Positions 39,760 through 41,015 of a stretch of DNA of 41,015 nucleotides are shown in pieces. This DNA is from Leptolinea sp. (GTDB lineage: Bacteria > Chloroflexota > Anaerolineae > Anaerolineales > Anaerolineaceae): contig JAAYYW010000238.1 of NCBI GenBank assembly GCA_012515195.1, positions 1 through 41,015 on the forward strand, given 5' to 3'. Position 1 is the first letter of the stretch. Each line of letters starts with the position of its first letter. Both the position numbers and the translations under genes were made by a program. The notes below the pieces were generated by a model. That model searched no databases. It worked only from the letters and a program-made list of their open reading frames with translations, and was not told the DNA's origin.

Positions 39760-40023
39760 TTATTCTTCGCTGGGACTACTTTCATTGGGTTTCTTGGCAC
39801 GGTATACGATCCGGCCGCGGGATAGGTCGTATGGAGACATTTCCACACGAACGTGATCTCCCAACAGGATGCGGATGTAATACTTGCGCATCCGGCCGGA
39901 AAGGTAGGCCAGAACTTCATGGTCGTGGTAATCTTTGTCTGTCAGACGTACACGAAATTGTGTGGCGGGTAATGCCTCAACAATTACGCCTTCGACCTGA
40001 ATTTTATCTTCTTCTTTAGCCAT
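39760..40023 (-). CDS. infA: Translation initiation factor IF-1
   Basis: [73 protein letters not shown]. Confidence 0.97.
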
Positions 40024-40050: not shown

Positions 40051-40251
40051 TTAGTCACCCGAGTGGGTGAACTGGCGACGTTTAATTCGGCGGATCGCCT
40101 TCTTCTTCTCTACCCGGCGTAACTCACTCTTGGAGATGAACCAGCGTTTCCGTCGCACAGTGCTTAGCACACCGCTTTTAACAACTTTTTTGCGGAAACG
40201 TTTCAGCAGTGCGTCCTGTGATTCATTGGGGCGCAAAACAACTGCAGTCAT
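40051..40251 (-). CDS. rpsU: 30S ribosomal protein S21
   Basis: MTAVVLRPNESQDALLKRFRKKVVKSGVLSTVRRKRWFISKSELRRVEKKKAIRRIKRRQ. SD AGGAGGTGA. Confidence 0.95.
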   Translation of the reverse strand: MTAVVLRPNESQDALLKRFRKKVVKSGVLSTVRRKRWFISKSELRRVEKKKAIRRIKRRQFTHSGD

Positions 40252-40281
40252 TAGATTCTCACCTCCTGTCTTTTACGGATA

Positions 40282-40320
40282 GAAAAACAAAACCGGCTGG
40301 TTCTTCAGGCGCAGCCGGTG
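40282..40320 (-). terminator. Intrinsic terminator or attenuator hairpin in the rpsU 5' leader
   Basis: Minus strand ACCGGCTG-CGCCTGAAGAAC-CAGCCGGT followed by TTTGTTTTT, ending about 30 nt before rpsU. Confidence 0.75.
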
Positions 40321-40359
40321 AAACAAGATAATTGAGTATTCTCAATTGACCCAGATCAA

Positions 40360-40410
40360 TCAGCCAGAGCCCTCCGTAATGATAACCGCGATAATAAAGA
40401 ACCTGCCCAT
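40360..40410 (-). other. Putative 16-codon leader ORF (MGRFFIIAVIITEGSG) upstream of rpsU
   Basis: ATG 40410 to TGA 40360, starting about 13 nt downstream of a TATAAT (40424-40429, minus) and preceding two hairpins. Confidence 0.35.
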
Positions 40411-40423
40411 AAAGAGCGAAATA

Positions 40424-40429
40424 ATTATA
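40424..40429 (-). promoter_or_regulatory. -10 element (TATAAT) for the rpsU-infA transcript
   Basis: Minus strand GGGGTATAATTATTT; -35 not evident. Confidence 0.45.
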
Positions 40430-40494: not shown

Positions 40495-40540
40495 AAAAAA
40501 AAGAGGCCAACCAAAAAATGTTAAAAGAAAAAAGCCTCTT
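40495..40540 (-). terminator. Terminator of the rRNA operon after 5S
   Basis: Minus strand AAGAGGC ... GCCTCTT followed by a T-run (40495-40500). Confidence 0.65.
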
Positions 40541-40655
40541 GGCAACGACCTACTCTCCCAGGGGGCCGCCCCCCAAGTACCATCGGCGCTGACAGCCTTA
40601 ACGACCGGGTTCGAGATGTGACCGGGTGTACCACTGTCGCACAAATCACCAAGAG
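40539..40655 (-). rRNA. 5S ribosomal RNA (boundaries approximate)
   Basis: Minus strand CTTGGTGATTTGTGCGACAGTGGTACACCCGGTCACATCTCGAACCCGGTCGTTAAGGCTGTCAGCGCCGATGGTACTTGGGG...CTGGGAGAGTAGGTCGTTGCCAAG, typical 5S. Confidence 0.95.
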
Positions 40656-40734
40656 ACTTTAATTCACAAAGTCAGTTTGAATAGTATGTAGGTTTTACGC
40701 AATTAGGAAAGAATTCCGAATTCCCCGCGTCACA

Positions 40735-41015
<281 letters not shown>

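Follow-up and report, generated by a model that had tools for sequence, protein, structure and literature searches.

A predicted transcription attenuator with a conserved Shine-Dalgarno-like sequence upstream of rpsU-infA in Anaerolineales

The window analyzed here is a stretch of 41,015 nucleotides from a genome placed by its relatives in the genus Leptolinea (Anaerolineaceae). The minus strand of the window carries an rRNA operon, with the 23S gene running down to 40731 and the 5S gene at 40653-40537, followed by a TATAAT box, a leader of approximately 165 nt, rpsU and infA. The rpsU gene starts with ATG at 40251 and orthologues in relatives showed 77 to 95% identity. The next gene is infA, which was located directly after rpsU in 76 of 78 loci. 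The arrangement of rpsU-infA immediately 3' of the rRNA operon (window 40537-41015) was also seen in L282. The 5S gene was within 600 nt of rpsU-infA in 29 of 75 loci, and in L. tardivitalis rpsU-infA is located about 4.2 kb past the 16S 3' end. The features of the locus are as follows.

40424-40429, minus strand: -10 box TATAAT of the rpsU-infA promoter; GGTATAAT invariant in four of four Leptolinea, present in most leaders of the order
40360-40410, minus strand: mini-ORF MGRFFIIAVIITEGSG, judged non-functional; neither its start codon nor its frame is conserved within the genus
40396-40408, minus strand: 5' leader segment GGGCAGGTTCTTT, alternative antiterminator strand against 40295-40305 in the minimum-energy fold of the full leader
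40370-40376, minus strand: putative decoy Shine-Dalgarno (SD) sequence CGGAGGG, invariant in the genus and conserved in position across the order
40361-40372, minus strand: GGGCTCTGGCTG, which by homology with the class is the likely 5' strand of the antiterminator; partner 40307-40317; weak in the window itself
40330-40347, minus strand: hairpin AATTGAG-AATA-CTCAATT between the decoy SD and the terminator, found in three of four congeners
40283-40319, minus strand: intrinsic terminator, stem 40319-40312 (ACCGGCTG) with 40299-40292 (CAGCCGGT), U-tract 40291-40283 (TTTGTTTTT); stem invariant in the genus
40307-40317, minus strand: CGGCTGCGCCT, terminator 5' arm and start of the loop, predicted antiterminator 3' strand
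40258-40267, minus strand: extended SD of rpsU, AGGAGGTGAG, -16.8 kcal/mol in the window
40051-40251, minus strand: rpsU, encoding bS21 (66 aa)
39760-40023, minus strand: infA, encoding IF-1 (87 aa)

The window leader was aligned with those of L. tardivitalis, HRD-7 and AS27yjCOA_114, giving four Leptolinea leaders in total. Four blocks were invariant: the -10 box, a stretch that starts at 40376 (CGGAGGGCT), the stem of the terminator, and AGGAGGTGAGAATC ahead of rpsU. The hairpin at 40330-40347 had differing loops and variable stem ends in the congeners. The original prediction had described a leader-peptide attenuator based on the 16-codon mini-ORF (40410-40360) and on pairing of CUGGCUG with CAGCCGG. 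The TATAAT, mini-ORF, AATTGAG hairpin, terminator and U-tract are all present where they had been placed. The terminator was said to lie about 30 nt before rpsU and its U-tract ends 31 nt before the ATG (40251). The complementarity of CUGGCUG and CAGCCGG over seven positions also exists, but it was kept in two of the four Leptolinea, with an A.C mismatch in HRD-7 and AS27yjCOA_114. The ATG of the mini-ORF was found only in the window species (TTATGGGC compared to AACGGGC, AAAGGGC and AATAGTGC in the congeners), and its frame is disrupted by indels in the congeners, so that the peptide is specific to one species. The mini-ORF has no SD, and about 6 nt would separate its start from the predicted site of transcription initiation. 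Conservation in relatives, which the prediction had named as its own test, went against both the mini-ORF and the pairing. As neither is conserved even among four Leptolinea species, the peptide-based interpretation fails; its elements exist in the window, but it is already contradicted by the comparison within the genus and is very improbable. Across the order there is strong support for the more general claim that a leader terminator and an antiterminator competing with it attenuate rpsU-infA transcription. The SD-like sequence CGGAGGG at 40376-40370 had been overlooked; of the blocks between the promoter and the terminator that are invariant in the genus, the longest contains it.

Folding had been suggested as a further check. 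The window terminator folded at -13.1 kcal/mol, more stable than shuffles (z -2.0), but the leader before the terminator was no more stable than shuffles (z 0.0). For this reason the case for an attenuator is made by the class and not by the window sequence on its own.

The upstream regions of rpsU were gathered from Anaerolineaceae, 80 named contigs, the family of G047 (f12) and distant Chloroflexota. There were 141 dereplicated regions, and 70 passed strict promoter and terminator criteria. These 70 dereplicated Anaerolineales leaders contain a promoter, leader and intrinsic terminator ahead of rpsU-infA. The gap between the U-tract and the rpsU SD had a median of 19 nt and was under 45 nt in 67 of the 70. 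This gap is too short for a promoter, and therefore rpsU transcription must cross the terminator. The possibility that the terminator ends a separate small RNA gene was rejected on the same grounds. The leader precedes an r-protein operon, to which it is specific. The core pattern of f12 matched in 20 of 100 genomes, with one match each and always just upstream of rpsU, while the reversed pattern gave 0 matches. No such leader was found on reading 20 upstream regions from Chloroflexota outside the order. A DNA search with the leader gave real matches only in congeners, and the weaker matches looked like chance. At the class level, interpretation of the leader as a conserved transcription attenuator is well supported by these comparisons of sequence.

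Leaders were more complementary to the terminator 5' arm than were their dinucleotide-shuffled versions (mean z -0.82, N = 70). Pairing of a leader with its own terminator 5' arm and loop was 2.84 kcal/mol better than with swapped ones (z -8.5, 0 of 2,000 permutations as good). Swaps within families also favored own pairs, by 2.12 kcal/mol in f1 (z -6.2) and 2.91 kcal/mol in f12 (z -6.4), with 0 of 5,000 as good in each case; the swap control covers composition, but not every effect of shared ancestry. RNAalifold predicted the same helix in 21 f12 leaders (UCGGYUG with CAGCCGA), with 93% of cells paired compared to at most 55% when slid. Covariation in this helix was modestly above shuffles, 47 of 1,000 of which reached it. 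One example of a two-sided change is GAATGC:GCATTC in L091 compared to GAACGC:GTGTTC in L066. Because a leader segment is complementary to the 5' arm and loop of the terminator in the same leader, the predicted antiterminator and the terminator are mutually exclusive. Roughly half of the lineages have the antiterminator 5' strand immediately after the SD mimic. In the others it is close to the transcription start and precedes the SD mimic by tens of nucleotides.

In the window itself the pairing with the 5' arm is weak (covZ +0.3, pre-terminator fold as above) and a rival pairing with the 3' arm scores better. Two options were found using the four Leptolinea sequences. In the first, 40372-40361 pairs with the 5' arm and loop at 40317-40307. 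In the second, 40408-40396 pairs with the 3' side at 40305-40295, and folding of the full leader gives this as the minimum-energy structure. This pairing of GGGCAGGTTCTTT was kept in three of four congeners and was ambiguous in L. tardivitalis. HRD-7 lengthens the 5'-arm pairing to a 7-bp helix, GGAGGGC:GCCCTCC, which takes in the decoy SD.

The 16S 3' end was searched for in the assembly of the window and was not found, so the L. tardivitalis anti-SD sequence was used instead. Within the leader, the segment with the best complementarity to the anti-SD lay at a nearly fixed distance from the terminator stem, a median of 48 nt before it (IQR 44-52, 10-90% range 40-57). The strength of these SD mimics had a mean z of -1.69 against dinucleotide shuffles. 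In the window the decoy (CGGAGGG, 40376-40370) has a pairing energy of -10.0 kcal/mol and lies approximately 51 nt upstream of the terminator. Some f12 leaders carry a stem-loop of almost constant sequence after the SD mimic (GAAGCG...UGAUCNNNNGAUCA...CGUUUC).

A constitutive partial terminator would sense nothing and would simply reduce rpsU-infA transcription by a constant factor. The terminator is the best conserved part of the leader, and some relatives (genus g15) seem to manage without it, with an extended SD alone. If it acted in this way, however, nothing would explain why the leader-specific complementarity and the fixed decoy SD persist, and this explanation is quite improbable.

It was also considered that the SD mimic drives initiation on a short upstream ORF, and that translating or paused ribosomes on it set the choice between terminator and antiterminator. 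The candidate in the window behind GGAGG is TTG ATC TGG GTC AAT TGA, and TTG-ATY-TGG-GTC-NAT-TGA is kept in three of four Leptolinea. A start-like codon was located exactly at +11 in 14 of 59 leaders, near the spacing of rpsU itself. In some genera start-like codons were slightly overrepresented at +10 to +12 (TTG or ATG at +11), and a leader ORF is possible in those genera. Overall, however, start codons at +4 to +12 after the SD mimic were not enriched (24 observed compared to 27.1 expected; ATG 7 compared to 10.3), and a conserved upstream ORF behind the SD mimic was rejected on this basis. Starts were lost between close relatives (ATG in L091 and ACG in L066, GTG in L098 and AAG in L101), and ORF lengths ranged from 4 codons to no stop before rpsU. 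As an explanation for the leader, this remains improbable.

The accessibility of the SD mimic did not differ between the antiterminator and terminator folds (p 0.21). A switch of the SD mimic from exposed to hidden between the two folds was therefore rejected, and any coupling through the SD mimic would need to be steric.

The rpsU anti-SD duplex had a median of -20.2 kcal/mol compared to -8.5 kcal/mol for infA at the same loci, infA being the only comparator gene. McNutt et al. reported rpsU SD strengths of -14 to -21 kcal/mol in Bacteroidia and autoregulation by ribosomes lacking bS21 (PMC9976891). The Flavobacterium johnsoniae system shares with the present one the same gene and an exceptionally strong, extended rpsU SD. 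It differs in that control is translational, the native leader is 25 nt and other genes are mostly without an SD (PMC9976891). Unlike the Anaerolineales leader, no terminator, antiterminator or decoy SD is described for it, and Chloroflexota are absent from the main text of that paper. The Bacteroidota condition, in which the genome is largely SD-less and the anti-SD is occluded by bS21, bS18 and bS6, is unlikely to apply here as such, since infA has an ordinary SD. In E. coli bS21 supplies SD:anti-SD pairing, according to a 2024 review which gives the regulation of rpsU in E. coli as unknown and describes bS21 autoregulation for Flavobacteria only (PMC10931766).

In the preferred reading, to which we give an even chance, the leader controls rpsU-infA by transcription attenuation, and the antiterminator is disrupted when a 30S subunit occupies the decoy SD. 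The 30S subunits able to use SD sequences, an ability that depends on bS21 in E. coli, would dock on the decoy. Once docked, a 30S would mask or melt the antiterminator strand, which overlaps the decoy or lies next to it, and termination would result. When bS21 or free, idle 30S subunits are scarce, the decoy would be empty, the antiterminator would form and readthrough would follow. The rpsU and infA genes would then be transcribed, and translated from the extended SD. We infer the 30S/bS21 sensing step, and the direction of the response follows from the geometry and from the role of bS21 in E. coli. If bS21 hides the anti-SD as it does in Bacteroidia, the sign of the response would need to be reversed. 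The earlier suggestion that a ribosome on the leader favors termination would survive in this form, with a 30S on the decoy SD, while the version with a ribosome at the leader stop codon does not. Against the 30S reading are the lack of a difference in SD-mimic accessibility between the two folds, the placement of the antiterminator 5' strand well ahead of the SD mimic in roughly half of the lineages, the weak 5'-arm antiterminator of the window beside its better-scoring 3'-arm rival, the small surplus of start-like codons in some genera and the modest covariation of the f12 helix. A more specific proposal, tentative and at well under even odds, is that the decoy SD in the nascent leader measures anti-SD-competent 30S subunits, and hence the state of bS21, with docking but no initiation deciding the fate of rpsU-infA. 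If the decoy does read the state of the 30S, the attenuator would be taking its signal from the ribosome, and not from a peptide, a metabolite or a free protein. The leader suggests that a separate lineage may also have built bS21 feedback on the strength of SD:anti-SD pairing, here at transcription and together with IF-1.

The leader may alternatively be of the classical r-protein type, in which free bS21, another r-protein or IF-1 binds a structured site and stabilizes the terminator. The SD-like sequence would then be part of the protein site. The bS21 protein is an RNA-binding protein. The nearly invariant stem-loop after the SD mimic in part of f12 is specific to rpsU, and most r-protein attenuators act by protein binding to a structured leader site, for example B. 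subtilis L10(L12)4 (PMC4538822). No structural element is common to the families, however, beyond the terminator, antiterminator and SD mimic. The P2 stem-loop is missing in f1, which includes the window, and the leader matched no Rfam family, including the known r-protein leader families. A wcaG match in Rfam (E 2.8) was attributed to chance. On balance a protein-binding leader is rather unlikely.

The leader shares with r-protein leader attenuators (B. subtilis L10(L12)4 rplJL, PMC4538822; rpsL-type, PMC2965389) an r-protein operon, a terminator just ahead of the SD and a competing structure. Those leaders are thought to answer an r-protein at an rRNA-like site, whereas here the conserved feature is an SD mimic. 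With trp and his leader-peptide attenuators it shares the possibility that a ribosome on the leader decides between terminator and antiterminator. Unlike that type, it has no conserved start codon or peptide and no run of regulatory codons, and a conserved translated ORF with an SD and start codon, which defines a leader-peptide attenuator, was not found. No S21/rpsU leader attenuator was found in the open-access literature searched. The leader is probably a previously unrecorded S21 leader of Anaerolineales, within the group of r-protein leader attenuators.

Two genera had rpsU leaders without the attenuator. In genus g15 (L154, L155, L157, L160-L165 and others) the leader is about 50 nt with an extended SD alone. 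In genus g11 (Anaerolineaceae; L149, L169, L170, L176-L178, L188, L190 and L193) the SD can sit in a hairpin, AUCACCUUUU-GGAA-GGGAGGUGA, within the last 70 nt before rpsU. In this hairpin a mimic of the anti-SD (16S 3' tail) pairs with the rpsU SD, which differs from the attenuator. The sequence CGGCTG was present in 36 of 70 terminator arms, which suggests that the terminator may mimic the 16S 3' end. The Leptolinea terminator loop (window 40312-40300 and L064; TGCGCCTGA...GGATCA in L. tardivitalis) resembles the 16S 3' end of the genus, TGCGCCTGGATCACCTCC, and this likeness could be 16S mimicry or chance. Tandem rpsU pairs approximately 740-800 nt apart were found in G261:C47, G240:C15, G245:C30 and G199:C80. 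In G261 and G199 the attenuator core motif precedes the second copy.
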